A stretch of DNA of 64,000 nt from positions 1 through 64,000 of IMG/VR virus record IMGVR_UViG_3300021197_001433. One strand, written 5' to 3'. This stretch comes from a virus. Of the stretch, positions 6,079 through 26,411 are shown one piece after another (the first letter of the stretch is position 1; each line of letters starts with the position of its first letter). The notes under the pieces are model-generated. The model was not told the DNA's origin, searched no databases, and saw nothing but the letters and a program-made list of their open reading frames with translations. The translations under genes were made by a program, and so were the position numbers.

Positions 6079-7058
6079 AAAGAATACTTATACTAGGTGG
6101 TCATGGATTTATTGGCAGTCATACTGCTAACTTATTAAAAGCACAGGGACATACAATAGGTGTAGTGGATTGTTATCACAAATACTATACTTTTCCAAAA
6201 GATGAATATGATTGTGTACTAGAACAACGGCAGACTCATTGCGGTGCAGATCAAGTATTCCCAGGACAAATTGAGGATCCTGTGTTTATGGAAAACACAT
6301 TTAAACAGTTTAAACCCAACATTGTTATTCATGTTGCTACATATCCAAATGCTTACATGGTTAAGCGTAACGTGATTGATGCAACAGGTAATATGATAAC
6401 TGCTACTGCAGTAACACTGGATCTGTGTGTAGAACACAATGTGGAACGTATTGTGTTTGCTAGTAGTAGTATGGTATATGGTGACTTTACTAGTGATGCG
6501 CCTGTTGAAACAGCAAGAACAGATCCTCTTACACTGTATGGTAGTTACAAACTACAGGGCGAAAAAATGTGTCAGATTTGGCAACGTGAAAAAGGATTAG
6601 AATATACTATCCTACGCCCTAGTGCCTTGTACGGAACAAGAGATATGATAGTGCGTGTAATTAGTAAACTAGCAGAAGCAGCACTTACCACTGGAGAACT
6701 GCGTGTACAAGGTCCTGATAATAAATTGGACTTTAGTTGGGTGGAAGATGTTGCTAGTGCTTTTGCTACAGCCGCTACACACAAAAATTGTGCTAATGAA
6801 ATTTTTAATTGCACTAGGGGCAAAGGTCGCACTATTATGGAAGCCGCTGAAATGGTACAAGCACGTTTAGGCGGAAGTATTACTACACTACCGCATGATG
6901 ATTTCTACCCTAATAGGGATACACTTACTAGCAACAAACTAAAAAATTGCACAGATTGGAATCCTCGCATGGATATTGAAAGAGGTATTCCGCAGTATTT
7001 AGATTGGTTATTGGAACAACCCTACACAAAGAAACTACCACGTTATGAAAGCATTTAA
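6075..7058 (+). CDS. NAD-dependent epimerase/dehydratase (extended SDR)
   Basis: An extended short-chain dehydrogenase acting on nucleotide sugars (epimerase, dehydratase or reductase). It shows GGHGFIGSH (8-16, NAD-binding GxxGxxG), the active-site serines in SSSMVYG (130-136), and the YxxxK pair Y155/K159 in YGSYK. Its 327 residues are normal for the class. Exact sugar specificity cannot be read from the sequence. It lies fourth in the cassette and overlaps the second DegT gene by 14 bases. Confidence 0.88.
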   Translation: MKRILILGGHGFIGSHTANLLKAQGHTIGVVDCYHKYYTFPKDEYDCVLEQRQTHCGADQVFPGQIEDPVFMENTFKQFKPNIVIHVATYPNAYMVKRNVIDATGNMITATAVTLDLCVEHNVERIVFASSSMVYGDFTSDAPVETARTDPLTLYGSYKLQGEKMCQIWQREKGLEYTILRPSALYGTRDMIVRVISKLAEAALTTGELRVQGPDNKLDFSWVEDVASAFATAATHKNCANEIFNCTRGKGRTIMEAAEMVQARLGGSITTLPHDDFYPNRDTLTSNKLKNCTDWNPRMDIERGIPQYLDWLLEQPYTKKLPRYESI

Positions 7059-8064
7059 TTTAGATAGACACTGGAACGAAGTATGTGGCAAGGTATCACG
7101 TCTTGCTAATAAACAAATGTGTAAAGGTGTATTTCAACGTGGCGAACTAACACTGGAACTTGAACAGCGCATCTGTAAATTAACAGATCGCAATTTCTGT
7201 GCAACCTATGGCAGTGGCACTGCAGCATTAACACAGGGTTTACGGAATCTTAATTTACCCAGGGGTTCAGAAGTTCTAGTACCTGCATACACATGGATTA
7301 GCAGTGTAAGTGCAATTAGTCTTGCAGGACTTAAACCTGTATTTTGTGATGTAGATGCTTTTTATCACATTGATTTGACAAAAGCGGCAAGTAAAATTAC
7401 AAGTAATACTAGAGTTTTACTGTACGTTACACTACTTGGAAACCCTAGTGTAAGTAATGTAGGGGCATGGTGTACTAGAAATGGCTTGCTACTGGTTGAG
7501 GATGCTGCACAAAGTTTTGGTGCTAGGCTTAGTGATGCAGTTTTTAGTATGCTAAGTTTTAGTCCAACAAAACCCTGCACTAGTTTTGGTAGTGGTGGTG
7601 CAATAGTAACAAATGATGCTGAAGTTGCAGAACTAGCAACACTGGGTAGATTGCATGGCAAGCGCGTCAACAGTGATGTAACAAATACACTTGGTATCAA
7701 CAGTGTGATGAGTACACATGAAGTTGCAAGTGTGCTAGTAAACTTGGATTACATGGACACACATCAACAGAGGCGCAAAGATATTGCAAGCCAGTATTAC
7801 AAAGAACTTACTGGTGTTGTAGAGTTTGCTAGATACAGAGAGTCTAGTACATATAGCAAGTACGTTATTAGACACGCAAACAGAGATAATATGCCTGGTA
7901 CTCTGCATTATCCTGTACTGCCTCCAACCGAAAAACCTTATCAGCAAACAGTTCCAAAAATGGCTGCACAATTACAGAGTACAAGTATTACACTTCCTAA
8001 CTGTGCATATATGACAGATCAAGAAGTTGAATCAGTTATAAAGGCTGTCAAATCGGCTGCGTAG
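7045..8064 (+). CDS. DegT/DnrJ/EryC1/StrS-type sugar aminotransferase (second copy)
   Basis: A second PLP aminotransferase of 339 residues. It has the cofactor-phosphate region TYGSGTAALT (54-63), D153 in VEDAAQSFG, and the PLP lysine K176 in SFSPTKPCTSFGSGG. It is clearly divergent from the copy at 3571, so two different amino groups, or amination plus another PLP reaction such as 3-dehydration, may be installed. The last 33 bases overlap the end of the convergent minus-strand gene at 8032. No terminator is visible between the converging operons. Confidence 0.9.
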   Translation: MKAFNLDRHWNEVCGKVSRLANKQMCKGVFQRGELTLELEQRICKLTDRNFCATYGSGTAALTQGLRNLNLPRGSEVLVPAYTWISSVSAISLAGLKPVFCDVDAFYHIDLTKAASKITSNTRVLLYVTLLGNPSVSNVGAWCTRNGLLLVEDAAQSFGARLSDAVFSMLSFSPTKPCTSFGSGGAIVTNDAEVAELATLGRLHGKRVNSDVTNTLGINSVMSTHEVASVLVNLDYMDTHQQRRKDIASQYYKELTGVVEFARYRESSTYSKYVIRHANRDNMPGTLHYPVLPPTEKPYQQTVPKMAAQLQSTSITLPNCAYMTDQEVESVIKAVKSAA

Positions 8065-9258
8065 CCACTGCCAATCATTTATTTGTTTGAGATCTTCTCC
8101 AGTTTTAGCAAACTCCGCTCCATCATTTGCTCCTCGTAGCACCCATTCACTATGGTCTCCGTGTGCATGTGTACACCACACTTCTAGTCTATGCCGTGTT
8201 TCAATGTCCACTTGTCCTGGTATACAACGACTTTGTAGTTTAGTACATTCACGAAATGCTGTGCGCCATGCACGATATGGATCCTCTGCAAAATGTGCAA
8301 ATGCACTAAGTTCTGGGACAACTTGTATTGGAAAACTTGTAGTAAAGTCTACACCAAAATCATCTACTTCAGTGTTTAATAGTAAATCACAGTTATATAA
8401 TATCACTCCCATTGTTCCATATTCTAGATCATTGCTCATGTTGCGAGCATTAAAAATGTAATGACTGGGTGTGCGCAATCTATCAGGTAAAAAATCAAAT
8501 CCGAAGTCTGGATTAATTTGTGTTTTTGCAAATACTGCAAAGTAATGATCTGTGTCACTTATCTCAGCCGCACGGCGTAGTGCATTAAGTTGTCCTTCAA
8601 CTCCGTGTAATCTCTTTGCCTGCGGATAGGATTTTTTTAGTATATCGTAGTTTAAATCGGCGTTTTTTTCGTCATAGGAAATGAACACTACATCTTGTGT
8701 CTTTTCATCTACTTTATAGTCAGTATGACGCAATATGTATGGGTAGTCATAGTACTGTGTCCGAAAATGCTGTTTACAGTCACGTGGCACTAGTAGTACG
8801 CTACCGTTTGTGCCAAAGGCGTGTAGATTGCGTTTTTCCCATAAATTAGGTTGAAAATCAAATCGTGCATCACTGTAGTATACCCAGTCATACATGTTGC
8901 CCAGTGTTGGTCTAGGCACACCATCGCTATGCCAGTTGATATGCTCGTACCAACCGAGAACCTTAAGGTCACCTGCTTGACGCTTAAAAGCGTCTACAGG
9001 TACTAAAAAAGTATCACCAAACTGTTGATCACCACTTGCCCAGCAGTGTATTTGTGTTGCTTCCCAGGGTACAGGTTGCCATGTAAAATCAAAGTCTGTG
9101 TAGTCACATAGATCACTTACAACCCATACATATTCTGTGGTTGCACGTTCTACTATGCGTTTGATAGTGGCTAGATGTGTATTGTTATAGCGTGTGTATT
9201 TTGTGTGTGCAGGCAGTTGTGCTGTACCGCCCATTTGCATGCAGTATATGTCAAACAT
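8032..9258 (-). CDS. glycosyltransferase-like protein, possibly catalytically degenerate
   Basis: A 408-residue protein. The ATG at 9258 overlaps the preceding stop by 8 bases (ATGTTTGA) and is preferred over an in-frame codon at 9273. The C-terminal half is a paralogue of the protein at 21669: both have an ISYDE/LSYDE strand, a P.AKR.(H/D)GV.G segment and AWR..FRE. The paralogue's DGD (DxD-like) triad falls here at VFAKT, so the usual metal-binding acidic motif is missing in this domain. The N-terminal half has VVSDLCDYTDFDF, an acidic segment that may serve instead. A nucleotide-sugar transferase or a non-catalytic partner are both possible. It is the last gene of the accessory operon. Confidence 0.6.
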   Translation of the reverse strand: MFDIYCMQMGGTAQLPAHTKYTRYNNTHLATIKRIVERATTEYVWVVSDLCDYTDFDFTWQPVPWEATQIHCWASGDQQFGDTFLVPVDAFKRQAGDLKVLGWYEHINWHSDGVPRPTLGNMYDWVYYSDARFDFQPNLWEKRNLHAFGTNGSVLLVPRDCKQHFRTQYYDYPYILRHTDYKVDEKTQDVVFISYDEKNADLNYDILKKSYPQAKRLHGVEGQLNALRRAAEISDTDHYFAVFAKTQINPDFGFDFLPDRLRTPSHYIFNARNMSNDLEYGTMGVILYNCDLLLNTEVDDFGVDFTTSFPIQVVPELSAFAHFAEDPYRAWRTAFRECTKLQSRCIPGQVDIETRHRLEVWCTHAHGDHSEWVLRGANDGAEFAKTGEDLKQINDWQWLRSRFDSLYN

Positions 9259-9553
9259 CCCAGCCCAACGCAAACTTGGTTTCTTCAGGAATCATATCAG
9301 GACCAAAAGGAGGATCCCATACTAATTCACGTTCCACTTTATTAACACCTTCAACAGCCATTACTGCATCATAGATGTCCTGACAAATCTGATCTGCAAA
9401 AGGACACATCATACTTGTAAGCGTATGCTTTACAATTACACTTTCTTCTGCAACATCCAAGTGGTATATTAACCCAAGATCATATACATTAATGCTAATC
9501 TCAGGATCATGCACTGTGCGCAATGCTGCAATTACAAGTTCTTCACTTACCAT
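9251..9553 (-). CDS. MIP18/SufT-like (DUF59) Fe-S cluster maturation protein
   Basis: A 100-residue protein of the MIP18 family. It carries the family core DPEISINVYDLGLIY (16-30) and the later conserved cysteine, C50, in TSMMCPFADQI. Members (SufT, PaaD, MIP18) help insert Fe-S clusters into target proteins. The gene shares an operon with five radical-SAM proteins, each needing at least one [4Fe-4S] cluster, so assisting those is the natural inference. It lies between a 2OG-Fe(II) oxygenase and the last glycosyltransferase-like gene, overlapping both by 7-8 bases. Confidence 0.85.
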   Translation of the reverse strand: MVSEELVIAALRTVHDPEISINVYDLGLIYHLDVAEESVIVKHTLTSMMCPFADQICQDIYDAVMAVEGVNKVERELVWDPPFGPDMIPEETKFALGWDV

Positions 9554-10059
9554 ATAGGACTTGGTTCCTCTGTTATTCTATAACTCTGATATATGCTCAT
9601 GCGCCTTTTTGTAACAGGCGAGCGCATGCCATGTTCATGTTGCGTGGGGTTAAACATCAAGTACCCACCATTTTTAATGTAAGGAACACTGCGCCACATG
9701 CCATCTATGTAACAGTGGGTACCCATACTTTCGTCACCTTTGCAAAGATATATCTGTACATTAGCACTTAGATTAGGACTTAAATCTTTGTGTACTTCAT
9801 TAATATAACCTTCATAATCATACCATAACTGTGTTGCATTAGCAAAACACGGTGTAGCAAAATATTCTTGTATCTTTTTTTCTATTTCAGGTAAGTGCAG
9901 TCCTTTTTTATAGTGTCCTTCGTCTCTGTTTAGTGCCCCTTGTCCCAAGCGTTGCCAGCAGTCTCGCTGTTTGAAATACTTGCGTAGTTTCTTTATTGTT
10001 GCTTTATCAAATGCATCTTCGATACGATAAAAGTCATCATGCAATTTCACTAACTGCAT
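9547..10059 (-). CDS. 2-oxoglutarate/Fe(II)-dependent oxygenase
   Basis: A 170-residue oxygenase of the double-stranded beta-helix type. A facial triad can be read as H90-x-D92 (EVHKD) and a distal histidine at 141 or 143 (QHEHGMR), with R152 or R153 positioned to bind 2-oxoglutarate (KRRMSIYQSYR). Such enzymes hydroxylate or desaturate small molecules, sugars or protein side chains. The substrate is unknown. It overlaps the carbamoyltransferase gene by 10 bases and the MIP18-like gene by 7. It belongs to a different subfamily from the pair at 22567-24214. Confidence 0.75.
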   Translation of the reverse strand: MQLVKLHDDFYRIEDAFDKATIKKLRKYFKQRDCWQRLGQGALNRDEGHYKKGLHLPEIEKKIQEYFATPCFANATQLWYDYEGYINEVHKDLSPNLSANVQIYLCKGDESMGTHCYIDGMWRSVPYIKNGGYLMFNPTQHEHGMRSPVTKRRMSIYQSYRITEEPSPIW

Positions 10060-11537
10060 ACTGTTACTCCATAACGTTCTTCAAATCTATCTGCATCACT
10101 GCGATTGTTTACCATTGGTTCGCCTTTGATATTTAAACTTGTGTTTAATAGCAGTGGACAACCTGTCAAAAAATACCACTTTTCAAGCAGCGCACGAACA
10201 CCTGGATGATCGTTTTTGCCCACAGTTTGTACTCTAGCAGTTTCATCTTTATGCACAATAGCAGGATATAGTTCTGGGTTCTTTAAATAGTACACACCCT
10301 GCATATATGGATTTGTATCTCCGTGCATGTTAAAAACATCTTCAGCATGTTCTTCTAATACCATTGGTGCAAACGGACGGAACTTTTGTCTACGCTTTAT
10401 TTCATTTACACGATCTTTAATATCCTCACCGCGTGGATCAGCAAGCAAACTTCTAGTGCCCAATGCTCTTGGTCCAAACTCTGCACGACCAGTAGCAACA
10501 CCTACAATTTTATCAGTCATTAATTTTCCAATAACTGCATCAACAGGATACTCGCCTCCCATGTCATGTCCTAGATAAGGACCTTCCCACTGTAACCGTT
10601 TTCCATACATCAGTGCTGCAGCACCCAAACTACTACCGCAGTCACCTGGGTTAGGCATAATCCACAATTTGCGACAGTATCCACTAAGCATGCTATTTGC
10701 TACGCAGTTTAGAGCAACACCGCCCATGAACACTACATTGTCTCGTCTCGTACAATGCTTTTGAAATATACCGCGCAGTAATTGCTCTAGAACTCGTTGC
10801 GCGCCAGCAGCAATATCATACTCCGTTAATCCTGTGCCTGCGAAATGATCCTCATCAATACCTGTGTGTAAGTTGTCTACAAACTGTACTAGATCCTCGT
10901 CTTTAACAAGTTTTAGATTTTCTTGGTATGCATCCAAATAACTTTTGCCATATGCTGCCATGCCCATTAAAATGTATTCATCTTCCATGGGCTTTAATCC
11001 AACATACTTTGTTACTGCACTGTAGTAAAGTCCAATACTGTGAGGATACTGCTGGCTCCAGATCTTTTTATATCGTGCAATGCCTTTGCCCAATATTTGT
11101 GGTTCATACCAAGCATCCCAAACACTGATTGTATCCCATTCACCAATAGCATCCACTACTATAACTTTTGCACTGTCAAAAGGACTGGTTTGAAATCCTG
11201 CTGCAGCGTGACACTTATGATGACCATAACTTTGGACAGGTGCCCACATACGATGTTTGCGTAATATATTTTTTGGTGTTGTGCTAAAGTCCAGTGCTTT
11301 ACGCCATTCGCCACTGTATAACTGTCGTGTGCGCTTTGACCAGTGATTCTCGTACCATGCTATGTGATTGGGCTCGCCATAACTGCATGCATCTTCAATC
11401 AGTGCATCATTTAAGTTAGCATCATTCTTTATGCCGCTATAACGCTCTGCATGTCCAGCAAAAAGGATATCACCTCGTTTATTAATTAGTGTTGCGCCAG
11501 CATCGTGGAAGCCTGCACTAAGTCCTAGAATTGTCAT
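10050..11537 (-). CDS. NodU/TobZ-type O-carbamoyltransferase
   Basis: Transfers a carbamoyl group from carbamoyl phosphate, through carbamoyl-adenylate, to a sugar hydroxyl. The N-terminal Kae1-like part starts with LGLSAGFHDAGATL (4-17) and contains MEDEYILMGMAAYG and FMGGVALNCVAN. The C-terminal YrdC-like part has the family signature GRAEFGPRALGTRSLLADPR. The 495 residues are somewhat short of the usual 540-580. In the cluster it probably carbamoylates the phage-made sugar or glycan. It is followed within 10 bases by a 2OG oxygenase. Confidence 0.92.
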   Translation of the reverse strand: MTILGLSAGFHDAGATLINKRGDILFAGHAERYSGIKNDANLNDALIEDACSYGEPNHIAWYENHWSKRTRQLYSGEWRKALDFSTTPKNILRKHRMWAPVQSYGHHKCHAAAGFQTSPFDSAKVIVVDAIGEWDTISVWDAWYEPQILGKGIARYKKIWSQQYPHSIGLYYSAVTKYVGLKPMEDEYILMGMAAYGKSYLDAYQENLKLVKDEDLVQFVDNLHTGIDEDHFAGTGLTEYDIAAGAQRVLEQLLRGIFQKHCTRRDNVVFMGGVALNCVANSMLSGYCRKLWIMPNPGDCGSSLGAAALMYGKRLQWEGPYLGHDMGGEYPVDAVIGKLMTDKIVGVATGRAEFGPRALGTRSLLADPRGEDIKDRVNEIKRRQKFRPFAPMVLEEHAEDVFNMHGDTNPYMQGVYYLKNPELYPAIVHKDETARVQTVGKNDHPGVRALLEKWYFLTGCPLLLNTSLNIKGEPMVNNRSDADRFEERYGVTVCS

Positions 11538-11682
11538 CGTTTAATACCCATGTCTTGCTACAATAATAACATACTGCAACTGGTCTGTCTAGTGTTATTT
11601 TTATAGTAAACAGTGGATGAGATTTATCTGGACAACTTAGTGTGCAGGGTTCATCAACTGTAAATGTTTCTTTACTTTTCAA
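11518..11682 (-). CDS. small CHCC-type zinc-binding protein
   Basis: A small protein with the arrangement C-x3-C-x4-HP followed by CYYC (SCPDKSHP ... AVCYYCSKTW), which matches the zf-CHCC family related to the NDUFS6 zinc subunit of complex I. The start is uncertain: the open frame reaches 11748 with no ATG. TTG at 11682 is chosen because it leaves only an 11-base overlap with the upstream flavoprotein gene and has a purine-rich GAGAAAG upstream. A role tied to Fe-S or redox proteins is suggested by family and neighbours only. Confidence 0.6.
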   Translation of the reverse strand: MKSKETFTVDEPCTLSCPDKSHPLFTIKITLDRPVAVCYYCSKTWVLNDDNSRT

Positions 11683-12397
11683 CAAATGCTTTCTCTTGTA
11701 CAAAATTTCCTGCACTGCGCTTACTGCCTTCAGTAAATCCTGTGTCAATGAACAAATTTTTCATGTCTGTATTAAAATCCATGCTGCCACATATCATAAC
11801 TTTATCGCTGTCAGGTCTAATAAATTTCCAATATTCATCATTTGCAATATGTTCTTGTATGCGACCACCAAGCACACCCTGCGCAGGTGTCTCCTGAGTT
11901 ACAGTTGGATAGTAATTATGAATGCTATCACTGAGCATCTCTTGTAAAAAATCATGGTAAGCAAGTAGTTCATCATTTGTTCTTACTGACCATGCTAGGT
12001 TTATTGTAGTAAAATTATTGTAGGTATCTGGATCTCTAAGTATACTAACAAATGGAGCAATGCCAGTACCAGTAGCAAATAACCATAAATTGCCACCTAG
12101 TTCAATGTTTGCCATTGTAAGTGTGCCGCTGGTTCTTTCTTTTACTTCAAGTTTATCTCCAACATCTACATGTTGTAATTTACTTGTTAGTGGACCGTCA
12201 GGTACTTTAATGCTGTAAAACTCAAGGTAGTCATCACCAGGGCCTGAGGTGAAACTATATGCCCTGGTAATGTTAGTTTCAGGTAAGCCAATCATTGTAA
12301 ACTCACCTGCTGTAAATCTGAAACTACGAGGACGCTCTGTCCTCATACGAAACAGTGCGTCTGTATAGTGTTCTACTTCTGTAATTGATAGTATCAT
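11672..12397 (-). CDS. ferredoxin/flavodoxin-NADP reductase-like flavoprotein
   Basis: A 241-residue FNR-fold protein. FAD is bound by RAYS (45-48, family RxYS), the NADP domain starts with ATGTGIAPF, and the C-terminus has the CGS-MDFNTDM segment common in FNRs and ends in an aromatic-poor FVEK rather than the usual terminal Tyr/Trp. It would move electrons between NADPH and a ferredoxin or flavodoxin. In Escherichia coli the Fpr-flavodoxin couple reduces radical-SAM clusters, so it is a likely reductant source for the five radical-SAM proteins in this operon. The start is coupled to the tiny basic ORF upstream through ATGA. Confidence 0.88.
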   Translation of the reverse strand: MILSITEVEHYTDALFRMRTERPRSFRFTAGEFTMIGLPETNITRAYSFTSGPGDDYLEFYSIKVPDGPLTSKLQHVDVGDKLEVKERTSGTLTMANIELGGNLWLFATGTGIAPFVSILRDPDTYNNFTTINLAWSVRTNDELLAYHDFLQEMLSDSIHNYYPTVTQETPAQGVLGGRIQEHIANDEYWKFIRPDSDKVMICGSMDFNTDMKNLFIDTGFTEGSKRSAGNFVQEKAFVEK

Positions 12398-12489
12398 TTG
12401 TAAATAAATGGATCGCGCTTGCGCAGTTCTTTTAAACGTTTTCTATAACGTATTTCCATTTTAATTTTAGCAATTAATTTTTTAATCAA
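12394..12489 (-). CDS. tiny very basic peptide (31 residues)
   Basis: A short frame between the cytidylyltransferase-like gene and the flavoprotein gene. It starts with TTG at 12489 (overlapping the preceding stop by 8 bases) or ATG at 12459, and its TGA overlaps the flavoprotein ATG (ATGA). About half of the residues are Lys or Arg; it ends KRDPFIYK. The precise fit at both ends suggests a real coupled gene. I recall similar basic peptides ending in RDPFIYK in T4-like cyanophages, but cannot confirm it. Function unknown; nucleic-acid binding is conceivable. Confidence 0.55.
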   Translation of the reverse strand: MIKKLIAKIKMEIRYRKRLKELRKRDPFIYK

Positions 12490-12856
12490 GTTCACCGTCT
12501 AGCCTCATTTCTTCTCTTATTTTTGTACCACTCACCTCATGTATTTTAGCACCTAAATCATGTTGTGTCAATGTGTAACCCACACCTCTTCCATAACTAA
12601 TGTCTACGATATTTGGTACACGCATTATAATATAGTTTTCTGTATATGCATGACCTGCTGCCTCTAGTGAATCTCTAATGTTATGCCATACTTGTTCGTA
12701 ATCAAATGGATTATCTTCCCAGCCCTCTACATCACGCACCTGTATTACAACTTGTCCAGTTTCCTCTAGTGCCTGCTCAAATAGTGCAGTGTGTCCACTG
12801 TGCCAGGGTTGCCAGCGTCCCAATAATTGCACTGTGGGCTTTTTCCAATCAAACAT
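12482..12856 (-). CDS. cytidylyltransferase-like nucleotidyltransferase
   Basis: A 124-residue nucleotidyltransferase of the HxGH superfamily. GRWQPWHSGH (13-22) gives the HxGH nucleotide-binding motif (H19-H22), and SGTKIREEM near residue 109 corresponds to the ISxTxxR motif. Enzymes of this type join NTP to a phosphorylated alcohol or sugar (glycerol-3-phosphate, ethanolamine phosphate, NMN). It directly follows an APS-kinase-like gene with a one-base stop/start overlap (TAATG), suggesting a kinase-nucleotidyltransferase pair that activates a small molecule for transfer onto a glycan. Confidence 0.8.
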   Translation of the reverse strand: MFDWKKPTVQLLGRWQPWHSGHTALFEQALEETGQVVIQVRDVEGWEDNPFDYEQVWHNIRDSLEAAGHAYTENYIIMRVPNIVDISYGRGVGYTLTQHDLGAKIHEVSGTKIREEMRLDGELD

Positions 12857-13299
12857 TATAATCTCTCCGTTGGTTTTCCTTGCTGAGCAAGCATGTAATT
12901 ATTTACGACTTTTGTAAGTTCTGCATGTGTATCCTTAAACCAAGATGCTACATGATAGTTACAGTGTTGTACTGGTTCAAACACAGCATTAGTATCTTCG
13001 TATCGACCTTCAGTAATAGTATCCATCCATACTGTGTAGTCTGCTGCAAACGCTGCGCGGGCTGCACTAGTAGGACAAACAAAGTCTGCTACTGCAATAC
13101 GTCCTGCCAGTACTACACCATCTGCTAGATGTCTCATGCGCTGTGCTTGCCTCATGCGACCCTCGAGTGTAAAGTCCCAGTCATCATACATTGTTCTTAT
13201 TTTATCTGCGTTAAGCCATACACCGTTAATTAATTCACAAAACGGTTCTGCTAGTGTGCTTTTTCCACTACCAGGCAATCCGCATATTAATATTTTCAT
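12856..13299 (-). CDS. APS-kinase-like P-loop kinase
   Basis: A 147-residue P-loop kinase with Walker A GLPGSGKST at residues 7-15. The segment NADKIRTMYDDWDF corresponds to the adenylylsulfate-kinase region GDNIR, and VADFVCPTSAAR to the S(F)ISPYR region, so the closest family is CysC. True CysC is about 200 residues, and the partner here is a cytidylyltransferase-like protein rather than an ATP sulfurylase. A sugar or alcohol kinase is therefore as likely as sulfate activation. It lies between the 361-residue unknown protein and the nucleotidyltransferase, overlapping both. Confidence 0.75.
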   Translation of the reverse strand: MKILICGLPGSGKSTLAEPFCELINGVWLNADKIRTMYDDWDFTLEGRMRQAQRMRHLADGVVLAGRIAVADFVCPTSAARAAFAADYTVWMDTITEGRYEDTNAVFEPVQHCNYHVASWFKDTHAELTKVVNNYMLAQQGKPTERL

Positions 13300-14381
13300 C
13301 TAAGATTCTCGAGTTGTAGTTGTTCATGATCTGCACTACTCCAATGATAGTCATATGTAGCACTACTAGATCCACATTCTATTTTATAGATATCTAAATA
13401 ATCGCCCATCTGTTTCCAGATGTCCTGGGCATCTGTTGTCCCAAAACTATTTAGCAGGTCAACTGAACCCAATTTTAAATATCCTAGACTAAGTTGCGGG
13501 TTATATGGATTAAAACCATTTTCTGTTAACCAACTACTGAATCCTTGAATCTCATCTCTATGCCAGGGTGCGTTTTCAAATGTAACATCATTGCCCCATT
13601 CAACGTCAAACTCACCGCTGTAGTATTTTAAATGTGTTATGGCTTCACAAACTGCGTCAGTAAGCACTGGAGCATGTTCGTCTCTGTACACCTCCATAAG
13701 TGTTTTGCCTATCTGACACCAGTGCATGTACACCCCACCCAGTTCTCTGTTGTAACCGTTTTCTAAAAACCCAATGCGATGCTCATCATCTAATAGATGG
13801 CGCGGTGTCCTAGTAAATTGTGTAATTTGACTAGGGCGTGTCCAGTATGGATTCTGCACAACTTTACGCTGGCTCATGCACAGACTTTCTATTTCGTGAC
13901 ACAACAAATTAAGTTGTCTAATAGCATAGCGTATTTCCGCTGAGCAGTTTACTGTGTACTTGCTTGGATTTTCTACTGTGCCTTCCAGTACTTCAAAATG
14001 ATTGTGTAGTATATTCATTACATCATGTTTAAGTACGAGACCTTTATTAACGGGATCGTCATCCATTCTGCCAATGGGATACTCTGGACCAAAACGTACT
14101 ACATCAGGCGCAAACCATTCTTCAATATAATAATCCAATTCGCTTTGATTAATTGTAAAAATATGTCTGTTTAATTCCTTGCACAGGTATTGTAAATCTC
14201 TTTGTGTATGTGGAAAACCATGGAAGCAATAATTCTTTTCAAGGTGCAAACTTTTTTGCAGCACATCCTGCTCCAGTGCCACTATCCAGTCCTGTGCCAT
14301 TTTATTATCACAGGGTACAATGTTGTAATCAATTGTTTCCTGTGTTTTGTAATTGCGTAAAACTATTTTAACAGATTTCAT
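13296..14381 (-). CDS. hypothetical protein of the radical-SAM operon
   Basis: A 361-residue soluble protein with no motif I recognise. It is rich in Trp, Tyr and His, has scattered cysteines without a CxxC or CxxxCxxC pattern, and no signal or membrane segment. Its start overlaps the end of the first radical-SAM gene by 14 bases and its end overlaps the kinase gene by 4, so it is tightly embedded. It could be a substrate-binding partner, a scaffold or the modified target of the radical-SAM enzymes. None of these is shown by sequence. Confidence 0.7.
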   Translation of the reverse strand: MKSVKIVLRNYKTQETIDYNIVPCDNKMAQDWIVALEQDVLQKSLHLEKNYCFHGFPHTQRDLQYLCKELNRHIFTINQSELDYYIEEWFAPDVVRFGPEYPIGRMDDDPVNKGLVLKHDVMNILHNHFEVLEGTVENPSKYTVNCSAEIRYAIRQLNLLCHEIESLCMSQRKVVQNPYWTRPSQITQFTRTPRHLLDDEHRIGFLENGYNRELGGVYMHWCQIGKTLMEVYRDEHAPVLTDAVCEAITHLKYYSGEFDVEWGNDVTFENAPWHRDEIQGFSSWLTENGFNPYNPQLSLGYLKLGSVDLLNSFGTTDAQDIWKQMGDYLDIYKIECGSSSATYDYHWSSADHEQLQLENLR

Positions 14382-19410: not shown

Positions 19411-20755
19411 AATACTCACACTGTTGCCAGAAAGTTGTCATCTCTGGAAATGTTTCTAAAAAATTTGTTCCTCTGCGACGGTCATGTTCACTAAAGAACT
19501 TGTAAAAGTCTGCACGTTTGCGTTCTACATCAGTTGTGCCTTGTAACATCCAATCCAAGTCACGCTTCATCTTTAGTACTTCGTAGTCCTTAAAGCCATG
19601 CATTTCGTGCATGTTTTCTTCCATGTAGCGTATACATTCCTGCATTACTATTTGATATTCCATAGGCAGTATTTGCATACTTTGCCATTCTGGTGTGTAC
19701 AATAGTGGAGTATCAAACCATATACGCTGATAAGTGTTTGTATATGTTTTACGCAAGTATACTATGTATTCTAACAGTTTTTTAAGGGAAAGTATACTTA
19801 AATTATTCATTGTAATAATGAATGTTAGACTGCTACGATATGGAACATCGCGCACAAATTCTTCACATCTATTTATTGCTAGATCAAAGTCTAGTCCGTG
19901 ACGTATGTATTCTGCCTGTTTACCCCAGGTATCCAAACTTACAAACTGCATAAAGTGTTCTATCTGTTCGCCTTCACATAGTCTCTGTACATAGCCTTTG
20001 TACTTGTCCCACACCTTAGTGTCAACACTAAAGTTGCTGGTTGTGTTTAAATGCAAATCAGGTTTGGGATTATCTAGTACATAGTCAAACACCCTATAGG
20101 TGTTAGGATCCATAGTAGGCTCACCGCCTGTCATTCTGAAGTGTTTAAGATCCTTGTATAGCGTGGGCCACCATCTCCAGAAGGCTTCTCTGTAGGGATT
20201 GTCCTCCCTAAGGGGGATGGCCCTACGTGAACCCACAAAGTGTGCAGGGTCATTGTGCGGTACAGTGGTGGGCCATGCGCCGTATTGTTTTGACTCTGCT
20301 GTCCAGGTGCTACTAAACTGAGGGCTGCAATAACTGCAACTAAGATTACAAACATTATTAAAATTTACCTCCACATAACTTGGGTTAACATCCGCACTGG
20401 GATTATTCACTATTTTATTAAAACTCGCCATTGCCCAGGGCTCGCCACTGCGATAGTGACGATCACTCATATTGCCCTGTGCTTCTATATTCCAGCAATA
20501 GTTACAATCACTACACTTTGTACCTGCCATCATTTCTAATCTGCTTTGTTTTTTGTGTGCAGTGTTGTGTAACGCACTTGGATTATCTCTAAGTGGAGCG
20601 ATATCTATTTTATGCAATGGCGGATGATAGCAACTATTTGTATGTCCCGTAGTAAGGTGCAGACTTACTTGTTGCCACTTTGCTAAACAAAAACTATCAC
20701 TTACTGTTGCTAGTTTAGTCTTTGCAGTTAGTGCATCATTATAATAATCACTCAT
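19388..20755 (-). CDS. radical-SAM protein 5 (twitch-type N-terminus)
   Basis: A 455-residue protein, first of the five to be transcribed. CxxxCxxC is C136-C140-C143 (NVCNLSCSYCSP), followed by TGGEPT. The N-terminus has SFCLAKW (C23), SCYHPPLH and a CSDCNYCW cluster at 81-88. It is closest to radical-SAM 4 (shared FSxTWxxxxKQ after the cluster and REDNPYREAF/GETNPYVEAF). The start overlaps the end of the GT-like gene upstream by 4 bases and its end overlaps radical-SAM 4 by 23. Confidence 0.88.
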   Translation of the reverse strand: MSDYYNDALTAKTKLATVSDSFCLAKWQQVSLHLTTGHTNSCYHPPLHKIDIAPLRDNPSALHNTAHKKQSRLEMMAGTKCSDCNYCWNIEAQGNMSDRHYRSGEPWAMASFNKIVNNPSADVNPSYVEVNFNNVCNLSCSYCSPQFSSTWTAESKQYGAWPTTVPHNDPAHFVGSRRAIPLREDNPYREAFWRWWPTLYKDLKHFRMTGGEPTMDPNTYRVFDYVLDNPKPDLHLNTTSNFSVDTKVWDKYKGYVQRLCEGEQIEHFMQFVSLDTWGKQAEYIRHGLDFDLAINRCEEFVRDVPYRSSLTFIITMNNLSILSLKKLLEYIVYLRKTYTNTYQRIWFDTPLLYTPEWQSMQILPMEYQIVMQECIRYMEENMHEMHGFKDYEVLKMKRDLDWMLQGTTDVERKRADFYKFFSEHDRRRGTNFLETFPEMTTFWQQCEYYANRSNI

Positions 20756-21675
20756 AGATTTTCTAATACTCTTTTATTTGTTAGTAACCGCGGAAGCAAT
20801 GCTTGCATGTCTACTGGATTGCGTAATAACTCGCCTAAACTTTTAAACACTGCATCAATTCGTATGTAACTGCTTTCCGTGTCATAACTTTTATCAATGA
20901 TGTCATCAAATATATCGAATCCCATGCGTTTTAAATTCTGTTCAAACTCTGGGCTTCCAATTACCATAAACAATCTACCATATGCAATTGGTCGAAATGT
21001 TTTTTCGGTAACGAAAAAAGTATCTGCTGTTGTATTTGTTTCACACACTATTTCAATTGATACATCTTTGTAAATAGAATTCCAAATGTCTGGCACAACG
21101 CATATTTCATGTTCCATGGTTGCAGGATTTATTGCATTGCCTGTGTCACTATAAGGCAACATAGGAATTAGACTTTGCCATCGTTCATTATGCTCGCAAA
21201 TAAAACCTGTAAAATCGCTTTCCCATTCTGTTACTGTATCAACATCTAAATGCATACTTGCTTTGCCACGATCGCTATACTGCCAGTTTTTGTGTTTCCA
21301 AAAACCATAAAGTCTTTCGTTGGTTGCTCTAGCACAAAACATCCCATAGTTAAACTTGGTAGATGGTATAATTTCTGTTTCTTTAAATTCCTCAGAAAAA
21401 TATGGCATATATTCTGGATTTGTTGTGTGTTTAAATGTTTCGCTTTTGTGTAGTCTATCGCTGCTAGTAAACTCAATTTGTGTATAAGGAATATCTAATT
21501 CATCACAGATATTTTTTACTTTTTGTTCTATACCATTTTCAACAATATCCCAACCTTCATGCATCAGATCTAATACAATTTCTTCATCTTTATGCTGTGC
21601 AATTTTACAAGCAAGTAATTCTACATCACGACTGTGTGCTGCCCCACAATAATTTGTAAGGTCAATTGTTACCAT
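20752..21675 (-). CDS. hypothetical protein, possible glycosyltransferase
   Basis: A 307-residue protein without a firm family. The C-terminal part contains FVTEKTFRPIAYGRLFMVIG (about residues 225-244) and then GFDIFDDIIDKSYD. The E-K-x(3)-P-(5)-P/L-F arrangement resembles the nucleotide-sugar-binding region of GT-B enzymes such as fucosyltransferases and exostosins, and I have seen this signature in phage proteins annotated as glycosyltransferases. It lies between a GT-A-like gene and the radical-SAM array. The assignment is tentative. Confidence 0.6.
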   Translation of the reverse strand: MVTIDLTNYCGAAHSRDVELLACKIAQHKDEEIVLDLMHEGWDIVENGIEQKVKNICDELDIPYTQIEFTSSDRLHKSETFKHTTNPEYMPYFSEEFKETEIIPSTKFNYGMFCARATNERLYGFWKHKNWQYSDRGKASMHLDVDTVTEWESDFTGFICEHNERWQSLIPMLPYSDTGNAINPATMEHEICVVPDIWNSIYKDVSIEIVCETNTTADTFFVTEKTFRPIAYGRLFMVIGSPEFEQNLKRMGFDIFDDIIDKSYDTESSYIRIDAVFKSLGELLRNPVDMQALLPRLLTNKRVLENL

Positions 21676-22583
21676 CCTTCGTGCTTTCTTATTGCATCTA
21701 TCTCCAGTGACATAGGATCTCCTGGACAGTAGGTTTGTGCATAATACTTCTTAAAAAAAGCACTTTCTTTAATGCCTATATCTAACATAGGCAATCCAAG
21801 TCTAGTCATTAGTGCGCCGTTAATTTCAGGCATATTCATAATATCATATTCAGCATATATACGATTTAAGTTTTCAAACCACTGCACTTCTGTATAATCC
21901 CAGTCAGTAAGCATGGTCATGTATGTGCCCATTCGTGCGCCATTGATAGCGTGTGTGCCGTGTTCAACATCTCTGCCTACGTTATGCCACATGCTAAGTC
22001 TATCAAAGTTTGACTTGTGTACCATATCTTCAAACTCAGTTAGTGTGGGCTTTGTGCCATTGCGCAAACACATTTTTACACCTTCACGGAATCCTGCACG
22101 CCAAGCATGTAGTTCACTTCCGTTGGGATATGTTGTACTATATACGTTATTCATTGCTAGATACTTGGGATCGTAACAAAACTCTACATCATTTTCATCC
22201 GTACCATCGCTTGCTTCATGTGTACGCATTTTGTTTACGAATGTGCGTGTCCAGCAACTCATGCCACCATTGCCATACATTAGTCCATTTACAGCATTAA
22301 TTGCTTTCCAACGAAATACACAGTCTGCGTAATTGTCCTCTATGTCCAGTGTAAGATCAAAAAATTCACTGAAAGGCATATTGTCGCCATCAATAAGAAT
22401 AAAACGTTCAGTGTCACTTGCCGCCGCCGCCGCTTTGTGTGCAGCATCACTGCCTTGTACACCGTCTACACGCTTTGCCCAGGGCACCATGTTTTGTATT
22501 TTAACCCAGAATTCTTCTTTGTTGGGTTCATCATAACTTAGATATATACAATCTAAATCGGCTACATCAAGTTTCTGTGCCAT
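21669..22583 (-). CDS. glycosyltransferase-like protein
   Basis: A 304-residue protein homologous to the C-terminal half of the gene at 8032. A beta-strand ending FILIDGDNMP near residue 67 supplies a DxD-like triad for a divalent metal and nucleotide sugar, as in GT-A folds. Later segments include MYGNGGMSCWTR and HAWRAGFREGVKM. It probably transfers a sugar onto a phage- or host-derived acceptor. It overlaps the 2OG oxygenase gene by 17 bases and the next gene by 7. Confidence 0.68.
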   Translation of the reverse strand: MAQKLDVADLDCIYLSYDEPNKEEFWVKIQNMVPWAKRVDGVQGSDAAHKAAAAASDTERFILIDGDNMPFSEFFDLTLDIEDNYADCVFRWKAINAVNGLMYGNGGMSCWTRTFVNKMRTHEASDGTDENDVEFCYDPKYLAMNNVYSTTYPNGSELHAWRAGFREGVKMCLRNGTKPTLTEFEDMVHKSNFDRLSMWHNVGRDVEHGTHAINGARMGTYMTMLTDWDYTEVQWFENLNRIYAEYDIMNMPEINGALMTRLGLPMLDIGIKESAFFKKYYAQTYCPGDPMSLEIDAIRKHEGW

Positions 22584-23307
22584 ATTTTCTTTCTTTTTCT
22601 TTTTGCATTACAACCTTGTCCTGATCACTAAGTTCTAAACAAGGATTTTTATTGTCAAGCGTAATGTTAAAACTAAAACTCCAACGCTCGCCTTTACTAC
22701 GAAAAGGATTAACCATATGCATTAACCATGCAGGAAAGAAATAAATGTCTCCAACTTTAGGTTTAAAACGACAAGTATTTGCACCATAACTTTGAGCTCT
22801 GCCATCTACAAAAGTAATCATACCAGCACTTGGATCATGATCTTCCATGGCCCATTCACGTTCTATATCGTCTGGCAAGCGCACATATCCAACGCCAGTA
22901 ATTGCACCAGTGTGCTTGTGGATAGGGTTCCAGTCACCTGCTACACTGATGTTTCCCCAAGCATCATGTAATGTACAATTTAGATCCATCATTTCTAACT
23001 GTGGTTCAACTAACTGTTTATGTTCTTCAGTTATATAATCCATCAAATGCCACTGTCTTTGCATAACTTCCTTGTACAAATCTGCACTGCCAGTTGCAAG
23101 CATGTTAACAAATTCATCCTGACCAGATCCTAGTCCTCCTGCAGATAGTGCAAACTCTCTTGTGTTATTGCCAGCAAGTTGACTACTGCGATCTTCAGCA
23201 TTCTTATGATTTTCAAATGCATAATTTAGTGATTCCAATACACTCTCAGGTATTTGCGTTCTTAGAATAGGGGGACTAAAGGGCCAAAAAACTTCTACAT
23301 TAGTCAT
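22567..23307 (-). CDS. 2OG-Fe(II) oxygenase family protein (copy A)
   Basis: A 246-residue protein of the putative 2OG-Fe(II) oxygenase group common in marine phages. The jelly-roll core has GNISVAGDWNPIHKHTG (H130, H132), then VGDIYFFPAWLMHMVNPF with H197, and R208 in GERWSFSFN as a likely 2-oxoglutarate anchor. It is a tandem paralogue of copy B, sharing GNISVAGD-NP-H-HTG and EDHDPSAG. Expected chemistry is hydroxylation; the substrate is unknown. It overlaps copy B by 8 bases. Confidence 0.82.
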   Translation of the reverse strand: MTNVEVFWPFSPPILRTQIPESVLESLNYAFENHKNAEDRSSQLAGNNTREFALSAGGLGSGQDEFVNMLATGSADLYKEVMQRQWHLMDYITEEHKQLVEPQLEMMDLNCTLHDAWGNISVAGDWNPIHKHTGAITGVGYVRLPDDIEREWAMEDHDPSAGMITFVDGRAQSYGANTCRFKPKVGDIYFFPAWLMHMVNPFRSKGERWSFSFNITLDNKNPCLELSDQDKVVMQKEKERKYGTET

Positions 23308-24214
23308 TTTTTTTATCCTTTATAAACTTATTTCTGCTTTCTATATATTCATTAAAAGGAAGGTCTGTGACATTCTGAGGTTGTTCCTGGTACAATCCAT
23401 CTACATCAACCTCGTCTTTCATCCAGTCTTTAATAGGGATAGGATTACGAATTGCTTCTTGTCTTGCCTCTTCCATTTGGGCTTTATCTTCATCAGTAAG
23501 TTCTAAATCACCTGTTAAGTTTGTAACAGTAGTATTGAAACTAAAACTCCAGCGTTCTCCTGCGCTTCTAAATGGGTAAACTTGATGCTGTAACCATGCA
23601 GGAAAGAAATAAATTTTTCCTACTTCTGGTTTTAATCGTAATACAGTTGGACCTAGACCATTGTTACGTTCACCATAACTAAAATGTATACATCCTGCAC
23701 TGGGATCGTGATCTTCTGTTGCCCATTCTTGTTCCATTGCTGGTGGCAAATTCAAGTATCCAACACCGCTGATTTGACCTGTATGCGTGTGTGCGGGATT
23801 AAAATCGCCCGCTACACTAATGTTACCCCAGGCTTGATGAATTGTGCAACTTAAATTCATATTTGGCAAACGATTTTCTACAATTTCAATGTGCTTTGCA
23901 GTAGCATTACGTCTAGTGTTTTCCCACTGTACACGTTTACTTAAACTGTACAACTCACCACTGCCATCAGCCAGCATTTTTACAAAAGCATTTGCATCCT
24001 CTTCATTGAGTACCTTATCATTAATTTGAAATTCACGTTTCATATTGCCTGCCAGATTGTGGCTATGATCGTCTGCTTTAGCATTATTTTCAAATAATTC
24101 TATCAAACTATATCCAACATGCTCTGGAATAACAGTCTTTATAATATTAGGCCCAAAAGCTCTAATTAATTCCACTTCCTGATCAGGATATCCTGTATCT
24201 TCAACTCGTTGCAT
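23300..24214 (-). CDS. 2OG-Fe(II) oxygenase family protein (copy B)
   Basis: A 304-residue paralogue of copy A with the same core: WGNISVAGDFNPAHTHTG, EDHDPSAGCIHF, and KIYFFPAWLQHQVYPF followed by GERWSFSFN. It differs by an N-terminal extension of about 15 residues and a charged C-terminal tail of about 60 residues (ends in KDKKND) that may bind a partner. AAGGAG lies upstream of the ATG. The tandem arrangement and similarity indicate duplication; the two proteins could act on successive positions or form a heteromer. Confidence 0.82.
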   Translation of the reverse strand: MQRVEDTGYPDQEVELIRAFGPNIIKTVIPEHVGYSLIELFENNAKADDHSHNLAGNMKREFQINDKVLNEEDANAFVKMLADGSGELYSLSKRVQWENTRRNATAKHIEIVENRLPNMNLSCTIHQAWGNISVAGDFNPAHTHTGQISGVGYLNLPPAMEQEWATEDHDPSAGCIHFSYGERNNGLGPTVLRLKPEVGKIYFFPAWLQHQVYPFRSAGERWSFSFNTTVTNLTGDLELTDEDKAQMEEARQEAIRNPIPIKDWMKDEVDVDGLYQEQPQNVTDLPFNEYIESRNKFIKDKKND

Positions 24215-24225
24215 ATTTTACTCCT

Positions 24226-24516
24226 TTATGGCATATACGGATTTCGCGGAAGATCTTGTTGATCAAGACTCCATGTACGCCTTGGGCGATCGCCTATATA
24301 CTCTAGTTTTTCATCTACTACTTCGTAATCTTGTGTCATTGAAAAACACTTGTCATATTCTTCCTGTGTAATTTCAATATATTTTACACCTTCTTTAAGG
24401 TCATAACTTATATCAATTATAGCACCTTTATCATTATAATACAACTTATGAATTGGCTTCGCTGGCACATCCCAGTTGTGATCCCTGCATGCTTGAAAAA
24501 AATTACTGTAATCCAT
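24226..24516 (-). CDS. hypothetical protein, 96 residues
   Basis: A small acidic protein with a helical start (MDYSNFFQACRDHNWDVP), a central charged sheet-like part (EGVKYIEITQEEYDKCF) and a Pro/Arg-rich end. I recognise no family. Its start overlaps the GT-A-like gene by 14 bases, and its end is 11 bases before copy B of the oxygenases, so it is part of the operon. Small proteins beside radical-SAM genes can be substrates or carrier proteins; there is no core-peptide repeat or leader pattern here to argue for that. Confidence 0.65.
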   Translation of the reverse strand: MDYSNFFQACRDHNWDVPAKPIHKLYYNDKGAIIDISYDLKEGVKYIEITQEEYDKCFSMTQDYEVVDEKLEYIGDRPRRTWSLDQQDLPRNPYMP

Positions 24517-25315
24517 ATCTTTTTATTAACTCCTGTGTACAAAAATTTTTGTTATAGTAATGAAATGGCACTGTTTGAGCGTAACCATTAACGCAAAATG
24601 TCATATCATCTGTTAGTGTCCAATGGCAACTGTCCTGCCAATCATCCGTATTAAATTTGTTGATATGTTTTTTCATATGTGTGAAGGTTGGATAATTTAA
24701 TGTTGGAACATAGAATTGTTCGCTGCCTAGTTCAGTTGCAGCAATACTCATAAACACATCTGTATCTGCAGTGTTATGTCTACAGTTACTTAGCACTGTG
24801 TTCTTGTACACATTAAAATTATCAAACACTTGTTGACATTTATCAAAAAACTGTTTTGTTTCAGTACAATGTCTGAAATACATAAAGCCATTGTAAGCAT
24901 TGCATAGATTGTTCTCATGCCACATACGCCTGTGGTGCTGATCTTCTACTACTTCGCCTCTGTAGTTCTGTACTTGTGTAGTAAAACAGACATTGCGCAG
25001 TCTACATCCTGCCCACCAGTGATCAATATTGCTGGTTATAAGCATGTCACTTTCTACTTTGAATGTTTCTTTAAAAGGAGTAAGTTCCCATGCCAGACAT
25101 TCGCTGGCAAATGGCGCCATTGTAGGTATAGTAATTACTTTGTCAAACACATCTAACATATATTCTGGCACAGGCGTTGCTGTATCTACTACCACTGCAA
25201 AGTCATTTATCTTACAATAAGTTTTTACGCTAAGAGCAAGCAGGTATGCACACTGTAGATATTGTTCGCCCTGTGCAAACGTTAGATAGCCTTGATCGCG
25301 TGTTTTTGCTCTCAT
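24503..25315 (-). CDS. GT-A-type glycosyltransferase-like protein
   Basis: A 270-residue protein with the layout of a GT8-like transferase: an N-terminal strand-helix part (YLLALSVKTYCKINDFAVVV), then KVESDMLIT where ESD stands in the DxD position, a middle with NAYNGFMYFR (a common product-binding element), and TADTDVFMS. It is related in layout to the next gene (25312). It probably adds a sugar from a nucleotide sugar. It overlaps the neighbouring gene by 4 bases. Confidence 0.65.
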   Translation of the reverse strand: MRAKTRDQGYLTFAQGEQYLQCAYLLALSVKTYCKINDFAVVVDTATPVPEYMLDVFDKVITIPTMAPFASECLAWELTPFKETFKVESDMLITSNIDHWWAGCRLRNVCFTTQVQNYRGEVVEDQHHRRMWHENNLCNAYNGFMYFRHCTETKQFFDKCQQVFDNFNVYKNTVLSNCRHNTADTDVFMSIAATELGSEQFYVPTLNYPTFTHMKKHINKFNTDDWQDSCHWTLTDDMTFCVNGYAQTVPFHYYNKNFCTQELIKRYGLQ

Positions 25316-26070
25316 AGTTTATCGCCTATTTCTAAAAGACTGCGCTTGTTCATTACATGTAAATCACCAGTGTAGCGTACAACGTTATGTGATTTTTTGT
25401 ATTCATACTTTATTAACCATCGACCATTGCGGTAATCCAGCACACTATCACTACTACTAAGTGCAGGCAGTGCATAGTCAAATGTGTCCATGTTCGCATA
25501 CCCATTGCATATTTGATGCGCAATACTTAGTGCAAAGTCATTACGAAAAGGTGTTTTACTGTATCCAAAAAGTTTAGCAAAGTAATCATAGTTTTTGTAT
25601 ACCATGTGCCAGGTATCAAATATACGCTGTGCATGTTCTGATTTACGAAAATACACCACTGTTGCCCAGCGCATTTCAAATCCATTTTCTGTCATAAACT
25701 GATCATGTCTAAACTGATCATTGCCTGTTATATCCCAACTGCTATTATGACATATAAAATCTTTATCACACCCAAAATAGTTTGCTAGTGTATCACACTG
25801 CACAATGTAATCACTGTCTAATAATATAGTTTCATCATAAGGACTTAGTTCATATGCACTGTATCTTCCTATATTATTCCATTCAGTGCCCTCAAGTTCA
25901 CCATTTGGATAACGAAAAGTACGGAAGTTGCGTTGCGCCGGATCTAATTTAATTATTGTACAAGGTACGTTTAAGTGTTTGGTTGCAAGTCGTGCGCACA
26001 TTTCACTTAGACTTTTGTAGTCTAACTGAGCACTTTCACTATATAATATAACAACGCCTTTAGACTTCAA
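25312..26070 (-). CDS. GT-A-type glycosyltransferase-like protein
   Basis: A 252-residue protein starting with TTG at 26070, since no ATG is available and it overlaps the previous gene by 11 bases. ILLDSDYIV near residue 83 gives a clean DxD motif for metal and nucleotide-sugar binding. RWATVVYFRKSEHAQRIF follows, as in GT8-like proteins, and the C-terminal LHVMNKRSLLE resembles the HxxxK/R element that closes the active site. It is second in the operon after the consensus promoter. Confidence 0.7.
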   Translation of the reverse strand: MKSKGVVILYSESAQLDYKSLSEMCARLATKHLNVPCTIIKLDPAQRNFRTFRYPNGELEGTEWNNIGRYSAYELSPYDETILLDSDYIVQCDTLANYFGCDKDFICHNSSWDITGNDQFRHDQFMTENGFEMRWATVVYFRKSEHAQRIFDTWHMVYKNYDYFAKLFGYSKTPFRNDFALSIAHQICNGYANMDTFDYALPALSSSDSVLDYRNGRWLIKYEYKKSHNVVRYTGDLHVMNKRSLLEIGDKL

Positions 26071-26404
26071 CTTGCCCTGCTTTGCGCTTGTCCTTTAGCA
26101 GTTGATATTCATTGTGCCAATCATTGTGTACTTCATTCCAGCGTTCGTCACACAATTCTAATAGTTCTTGTACATTAACCTCAATAGGAGTATCGTAACT
26201 ATCTGGAATAATAGTCTCTACGGACTTGTTAAACAAACCTACATTCACGTTTTTCATGTACAAGTAACTTAGCAGTGTCATATCAACACGAAACAATCCA
26301 CCATTGTATGTTACACTAAGGCGTTGCTGTTGTTGTTCTTTAAGTGTTTGTTTTTGCCTATTAAGCGCAAAACGCTCATTAGCATATGATTCTAGATTTT
26401 CCAT
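26060..26404 (-). CDS. conserved phage hypothetical protein, first gene of the accessory operon
   Basis: A 114-residue protein. The ATG at 26404 is chosen over an in-frame TTG at 26440, which lies in the promoter -35. The N-terminal 30 residues are Gln/Lys-rich and helical; then comes SVTYNGGLFRVDMTLLSYLY, a segment I recall from conserved cyanophage proteins near tail genes, and an acidic helical end. There is no Shine-Dalgarno sequence, and the predicted transcription start is one base before the ATG, so a leaderless mRNA is likely. Function unknown. Confidence 0.7.
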   Translation of the reverse strand: MENLESYANERFALNRQKQTLKEQQQQRLSVTYNGGLFRVDMTLLSYLYMKNVNVGLFNKSVETIIPDSYDTPIEVNVQELLELCDERWNEVHNDWHNEYQLLKDKRKAGQVEV

Positions 26405-26411
26405 AGTAGAT

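Follow-up and report, generated by a model that had tools for sequence, protein, structure and literature searches.

We analysed bases 1-64000 (hereafter the window) of the 69,383-bp virus record IMGVR_UViG_3300021197_001433 (IMG/VR), a fragment which belongs to a T4-like phage according to its genes for baseplate wedge, baseplate hub, gp55-type sigma factor and SbcCD proteins. The leftward operon at 8032-26404 encodes five radical S-adenosylmethionine (SAM) enzymes, rSAM5 to rSAM1, and gene order and phylogeny indicate that this array is one ancient ordered unit of five orthologous clades. Dozens of aquatic T4-like phages share the five-enzyme set, and the Fpr-like reductase and the MIP18-type Fe-S assembly protein encoded in the same operon are optional extras of the array. 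We suggest, at slightly less than even chances, that the operon encodes a multi-step radical tailoring line whose product is an unusual, carbamoylated glycan destined for the tail or the host surface.

Five orthologous radical-SAM enzymes in a fixed order

The operon contains 22 leftward genes with 19 of 21 junctions overlapping and two gaps of 84 and 11 bp; gene content, order and coordinates agree with the single run of overlapping genes described in an earlier note on this DNA. All genes given below as part of the operon are on the minus strand. The five radical-SAM proteins named in that note score 288-409 bits against N_Twi_rSAM (NF033640, NCBIfam), every one above the curated cut-off of 170 bits: rSAM5 (19388..20755, 315.8 bits), rSAM4 (18091..19419, 288.2 bits), rSAM3 (16800..18116, 408.7 bits), rSAM2 (15638..16807, 313.2 bits) and rSAM1 (14368..15648, 297.2 bits).

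In a tree of 97 sequences the five array positions correspond to five clades with four label changes, the minimum possible, and the inter-clade branches exceed most intra-clade branches (clade support 100 for rSAM1, 94 for rSAM2 and 99 for rSAM4; rSAM5 has its own clade). Since the five positions are five orthologous clades, the array is older than the divergence of these phages. The CxxxCxxC motif is conserved in 100% and the N-terminal auxiliary-cluster cysteines in 96-100% of the 46-52 sequences per clade, with 98-100% for the cluster cysteines of rSAM4, invariant cysteines in rSAM3, and invariant C136/C140/C143 and auxiliary C23/C42/C84/C87 in the clade alignment of rSAM5. The GGEP motif is likewise nearly invariant within each clade, so that none of the five enzymes is decaying. 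The twitch region of rSAM3 weakly matches BtrN, the radical-SAM dehydrogenase of an aminocyclitol (2.4e-4).

Scanning IMG/VR with rSAM3 gave 63 contigs, including 57 loci with all five enzymes, and the order 5-4-3-2-1 was found in 57/57. The conserved unit over the 63 contigs is tf2-tf1, ORF22, GTc, GTb, ORF16, rSAM5-4-3-2-1, ORF9 and CarbT (ORF, open reading frame; GT, glycosyltransferase). Per-locus counts over the 57 complete arrays, with flanks limited to 10 kb, were 54 for ORF16, 49 each for CarbT and ORF9, 48 for GTb and 45 for GTc. As rSAM3 had been the query for these contigs, we picked a second set by gp55 similarity and read the layout in its array-positive contigs except G066. Seven of the ten array-positive contigs have tf2-tf1-GTc-GTb-ORF16-rSAM5-4-3 followed by 2-1 or 1-2, or rearranged (G064), and G059 and G061 have reduced arrays with one or two rSAM5-like genes after the three GT genes. 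Both retain tf1-ORF22-GTc-GTb-ORF16-rSAM5 and just one or two radical-SAM genes, which ties rSAM5 to the three GT-like genes. ORF9 was dropped as a universal core gene, being absent from 9/10 gp55-ascertained array records.

Glycosyltransferases, carbamoyltransferase and other operon genes

The core gene CarbT (10050..11537) has the domain pair PF02543 and PF16861, confirming the carbamoyltransferase noticed earlier, and matches NovN at 5e-73; its PDB relatives include NovN, GdmN and TobZ, and the metal ligands HxxxH (H106/H110) and D299 are invariant. CarbT is a NodU/TobZ-type O-carbamoyltransferase, predicted to donate a carbamoyl group to a sugar hydroxyl.

The earlier note also listed GT-like proteins, and two of them are backed by profile or fold. 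The core protein GTb (24503..25315) is GT8-like, with a profile match to glycogenin at 1.3e-5. The core protein ORF16 (21669..22583), with an invariant DGD, has a predicted GT-A fold: the AlphaFold model is confident (predicted local distance difference test, pLDDT, 92.7) and nearly all of its best PDB matches are glycosyltransferases, at a borderline E of only ~1e-3. The other three are unproven. GTc (25312..26070), a core gene, is a putative DxD glycosyltransferase with invariant D85/D87 and no PDB profile match. ORF15 (20752..21675) is a putative, variable and often duplicated glycosyltransferase, whose family occurs in 46/57 arrays with varying copy number and whose profile search did not prove a glycosyltransferase fold. 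The putative glycosyltransferase GTa (8032..9273) gave no profile match; its C-terminal half resembles ORF16 by eye, and the family is present in 25/57 arrays.

ORF22 (26060..26404) is the first gene of the unit, 26-80% conserved in this position in 38/57 complete arrays, and ORF19 (24226..24516) is a small accessory protein of close relatives only. There is no room among the overlapping array genes for a precursor-peptide gene of the ribosomally synthesised and post-translationally modified peptide type; ORF19 and ORF22 may be unusual substrates of radical-SAM maturases. For the ORF9 protein (13296..14381) AlphaFold gives a confident model (pLDDT 90.5) that resembles no fold in the PDB, and its matches in BFVD are uncharacterised phage proteins only, one of them of 768 aa.

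Among the accessory genes, two of the three 2-oxoglutarate (2OG) oxygenases of the earlier note were confirmed as 2OG-Fe(II) oxygenases by PF13759, OGb (23300..24214, 73.8 bits, phrog_81) and OGa (22567..23307, 70.9 bits), and the possible third, OGc (9547..10059), is below threshold with 15.3 bits versus a cut-off of 23. The kinase/nucleotidyltransferase pair holds as two halves of phrog_10255, an already known family of phage proteins, the P-loop kinase (12856..13299) being the N-terminal and the nucleotidyltransferase (12482..12856) the C-terminal half.

Amino-sugar-nucleotide genes on the plus strand (3571..8064) converge on the operon and are variable among relatives; they encode DegT, Gfo/Idh/MocA, a PIG-L deacetylase, an epimerase and a second DegT-type aminotransferase, the last assigned by sequence only. 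To the left of the operon there is also a ThyX-type thymidylate synthase gene (2647-3348), 67-89% identical in several relatives whose neighbourhood there otherwise differs.

Promoter and linkage to the tail gene tf1

A sigma70 promoter at 26440-26412 on the minus strand (TTGACA-17-TATAAT, extended -10 TG) matches at 12/12 positions, with 0.05 such matches expected by chance in 64 kb. Together with its hairpin it occupies 26404..26440, just before the ORF22 ATG at 26404; this ATG is the likely start, as the earlier note had it, and the TTG at 26440 falls inside the promoter. The spacer contains a perfect inverted repeat, CAGGCGC-TACG-GCGCCTG, and in relatives both arms of its stem vary. Elsewhere among the relatives, tf1 is followed by a terminator hairpin and then by the promoter, ~35 nt ahead of the ORF22 ATG; a score of at least 10 of 12 was reached in 19/32 relatives versus 6/189 random 120-mers. 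The succession of terminator and sigma70 promoter makes it probable that transcription of the array is separated from that of the tail operon and initiated by host polymerase. Other strong promoters precede the sigma, SbcD and SbcC genes in the window, suggesting early or middle timing, and expression of the array is probably early and driven by host RNA polymerase. A T4-type late promoter was rejected for the operon: TATAAATA occurs only twice in the window, neither time at the operon. Divergent promoters were seen before the gp55-type gene (56472-56500), a sigma70-like one on the plus strand at 56472 and an intergenic TATAAATA on the minus strand at 56482-56489.

The tail genes tf1 (26462-27367) and tf2 (27383-28837), together 26462..28837 on the minus strand, lie upstream of the array in conserved synteny, and tf1 is directly upstream of the array in most contigs reaching that far. 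In the gp55 set, tf1 was found in 10/10 array-positive records versus 1/12 negatives, where it is at the contig edge. Most array-negative contigs are fragments ending short of the tf1 region, and p = 0.015 is based on only two informative negatives, G055 and G067, both without tf1 and array. The tf1 protein has 27.9% Ser+Thr, the highest of 34 window proteins compared. A 4480-aa open reading frame is located at 32500-45942, between the baseplate wedge and the tail-fibre genes.

Redox and Fe-S genes are optional extras

The earlier note had proposed that electrons and clusters for radical modification are supplied by the phage itself. The FNR-like gene (11672..12397) does encode an Fpr-type NAD(P)H:flavodoxin/ferredoxin reductase by profile (NAD_binding_1 39.9 bits), with PRK10926 as the nearest NCBIfam; it scores 118.5 bits against this equivalog without reaching the cut-off of 390, and is a member of the same superfamily, not an equivalog. 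The MIP18-like gene (9251..9553) likewise encodes a MIP18/DUF59 Fe-S assembly protein (PF01883, 63.6 versus 23.5 bits), and 104 bits against the equivalog TIGR02945 is below the cut-off of 143. For the proposed CHCC zinc protein (11518..11748) the motif is present, with no match in the profile libraries.

The conserved co-occurrence of these genes with radical-SAM arrays was not found. FNR is present in 6/57 and MIP18 in 5/57 complete array loci. In full records FNR was found in 5/28 array records versus 0/22 controls and MIP18 in 4/28 versus 1/22, and 10/22 controls carry N_Twi genes. In the pooled data each gene occurs in 5/38 array-positive versus 0/12 array-negative records (p = 0.32), so that both are accessories, and a redox/Fe-S supply as a core part of the system was rejected. 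Of the earlier interpretation, the assigned enzyme families, the operon and the link to glycans stand; the inclusion of the reductase and MIP18 as parts of the system does not.

Both genes also occur in contigs without a nearby array, and three large FNR records (G004, G012 and G013) lack any N_Twi gene. Of the records of at least 75 kb found via FNR or MIP18, 16/20 carry six or more N_Twi genes, compared with 10/12 informative gp55-matched T4-like relatives and 2/9 random IMG/VR contigs. The association is above that of random contigs, and since it is no higher than in the relatives, it is mostly that of the phage group. A [2Fe-2S] ferredoxin (Fer2) was absent from 47 records including this one, all searched as fragments and with flavodoxin not searched for, suggesting that the electron chain is incomplete without the host.

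An A-type Fe-S carrier was detected in 11/12 records with 8-23 N_Twi copies, themselves chosen by MIP18 or FNR, versus 1/35 ordinary array records (p = 8e-9); the present record has none. Fe-S genes therefore appear to travel together in radical-SAM-rich phages, which supports phage Fe-S provision in those relatives, a role already suggested (PMC5332604). Seven IMG/VR records (G018, G022, G023, G028, G034-G036) combine 15-23 N_Twi genes each with an A-type Fe-S carrier and with MIP18 or FNR. N_Twi genes also occur in the cultured Vibrio phage K566. Isolated phages were discarded as a source of FNR/MIP18 relatives, the INPHARED matches resembling bacterial DNA, mostly unannotated or with host-like gene names.

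Cellular counterparts

Among 84,980 species genomes scanned, N_Twi relatives were found in many Bacteroidota and Bdellovibrionota. Several top cellular matches look like phage contigs binned into metagenome-assembled genomes, and L254 is identical to the phage record G065 across the array proteins compared. The Bacteriovoracaceae genome UBA6144 (L261, DIVA01000093.1, 6166-18162) has, between rplU/obg and lgt on its chromosome, a block of eight N_Twi genes: seven follow one another, interrupted by a single small unrelated gene, and the eighth is on the opposite strand. The block includes orthologs of rSAM4 (two copies), 1, 2, 3 and 5 that fall inside the phage clades. Two open reading frames of no assigned family, 12481-12909 and 15844-16803, are interspersed in the block. 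Related N_Twi sets were found in the Bdellovibrionota L257, L327 and L278. Function prediction from single cellular relatives was given up, as their 119 neighbours gave no common theme.

Proposed pathway and alternative explanations

In the pathway that we propose, GTc, GTb and ORF16 would build or attach a short glycan, and the non-redundant enzymes rSAM5 to rSAM1, each predicted to bind a catalytic and an N-terminal auxiliary Fe-S cluster, would alter the glycan or its precursor by successive radical steps (dehydrogenation, epimerisation or deoxygenation). CarbT would add a carbamoyl group as a cap, and the variable genes (extra GTs, 2OG oxygenases, kinase/nucleotidyltransferase) may diversify the product. 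The acceptor would most likely be tf1 or a neighbouring fibre, otherwise a host surface glycan, with the Fpr-like reductase and MIP18 as optional helpers for the roughly ten clusters of the five enzymes. We prefer a glycan because the GT trio is kept in reduced arrays, the relatives of CarbT are of the sugar type, rSAM3 resembles BtrN, if weakly, and sugar-nucleotide genes are adjacent. Several observations weigh on the other side: the match to BtrN is a weak one, three of the GT-like proteins (GTc, GTa and ORF15) are only putative glycosyltransferases, just two array-negative contigs inform the tf1 linkage, Ser/Thr richness is common in tail fibres, and the 119 genes next to single cellular relatives show no recurring link to glycans. 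No GT or carbamoyltransferase was recognised beside the UBA6144 block, and since the five-enzyme set stands there without them, the substrate need not come from phage GTs. Against a reading in terms of glycans alone, this block is the weightiest evidence, and because of it we hold the glycan pathway at just under an even chance. It is plausible, with a chance somewhat short of even, that the five enzymes constitute a five-step radical-SAM pathway with an undescribed product, passed on as one ordered unit in T4-like phages and present as a block on Bdellovibrio-like chromosomes, which would endow phage tails or infected cells with a modification new to viruses.

The same bacterial block, together with the related sets in other Bdellovibrionota and the conservation over phages from many sampling sites, which suggests a universal target, would fit a self-contained pathway acting on a conserved non-glycan target (protein, RNA, cofactor or small molecule), with the GTs as unrelated neighbours. 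We consider this rather unlikely, the phage block regularly including the GT trio, reduced arrays losing radical-SAM genes and not GTs, and bacterial GTs possibly acting in trans. Less likely still is that the enzymes act directly on a virion protein, for example tf1, as post-translational modifiers: SPASM/twitch radical-SAM enzymes are mostly peptide modifiers and tf1 accompanies the array in all ten gp55-set array records, but no precursor-peptide gene fits between the overlapping genes, the promoter is of the early type, and the carbamoyltransferase and GTs would be left unexplained. That the electron and cluster supply (Fpr-like reductase, MIP18, CHCC) is integral to the radical system, as the presence of both genes inside the operon, the A-type carriers of the radical-SAM-rich records and the published suggestion (PMC5332604) could indicate, is improbable given the 5/38 frequencies, the missing ferredoxin and this record's lack of an A-type carrier; most phages must make do with the host's systems. 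Most improbable is DNA hypermodification, in which CarbT would act on 5-hydroxymethylcytosine as do phage enzymes with the same Pfam pair in the MetaGPA study (PMC8670742). ThyX nearby and the early-type promoter would agree with it, but the companion PF00303 (ThyA/dCMP hydroxymethylase) is absent from this record and from 27/28 array records, so that DNA carbamoylation is not supported, and in unmodified contigs the same domains adjoin glycosyltransferases (PMC8670742), as in this operon.

Comparison with known systems

Radical-SAM genes have been repeatedly reported as function-less odd passengers of aquatic phage genomes. With an ancient, ordered, separately promoted and tail-linked five-gene unit, this annotation list becomes a pathway that experiments can test and whose minimal gene set is defined, and in the bacterial ortholog block its chemistry can be studied independently of the phage. 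A product placed on tail fibres or on the host surface would matter for host range and superinfection in very common aquatic phages.

Single enzymes of antibiotic pathways resemble individual members of the operon: BtrN is, like rSAM3, a twitch-type radical-SAM enzyme, with the twitch domain C-terminal in BtrN and N-terminal in the array enzymes, and TobZ and NovN are, like CarbT, O-carbamoyltransferases of sugars. The DNA carbamoyltransferase of MetaGPA (PMC8670742) has the same Pfam pair in phages, and its companion PF00303 is missing here. The Campylobacter phages CP220 and CPt10 are T4-like and carry 11-12 radical-SAM genes, five of them in an exchangeable module with a putative glycine amidinotransferase (Timms 2010, PMC2853527). 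In the open-licence literature, where absence is not proof, we found neither the ordered set of five nor its promoter or bacterial counterpart described.

The host recognition cluster of pelagimyophages, in which radical-SAM gene cassettes were mentioned (Zaragoza-Solas 2020, PMC7029224), is like this locus a tail-fibre region of T4-like phages with many glycosyltransferases including GT8, and the present operon is such a large GT-rich island beside tail-fibre genes (tf2-tf1). That cluster is hypervariable and non-syntenic, whereas the five-enzyme block is ordered, conserved over many contigs and equipped with its own promoter; it is also defined as lying between VrlC and gp14 in phages of SAR11, and the present record is a fragment. 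T4-like marine genomes with IscU or an A-type carrier, PaaD (MIP18/DUF59 type) and up to 12 radical-SAM genes were described with the suggestion of Fe-S supply to viral proteins (Nishimura 2017, PMC5332604), and share with this phage the many radical-SAM genes and the Fe-S assembly genes including PaaD. An ordered five-paralog unit, the CarbT/GT block and a cellular counterpart are no part of that description, and in the phages studied here the Fe-S genes are accessory.

Taken together, radical-SAM cassettes in tail-fibre islands (PMC7029224), Fe-S and radical-SAM genes in one genome (PMC5332604) and the Campylobacter phage modules (PMC2853527) were already published, and this analysis adds the ordered ancient array, its conserved terminator-plus-sigma70 promoter, the tf1 linkage and a Bacteriovoracaceae chromosome with all five orthologs.

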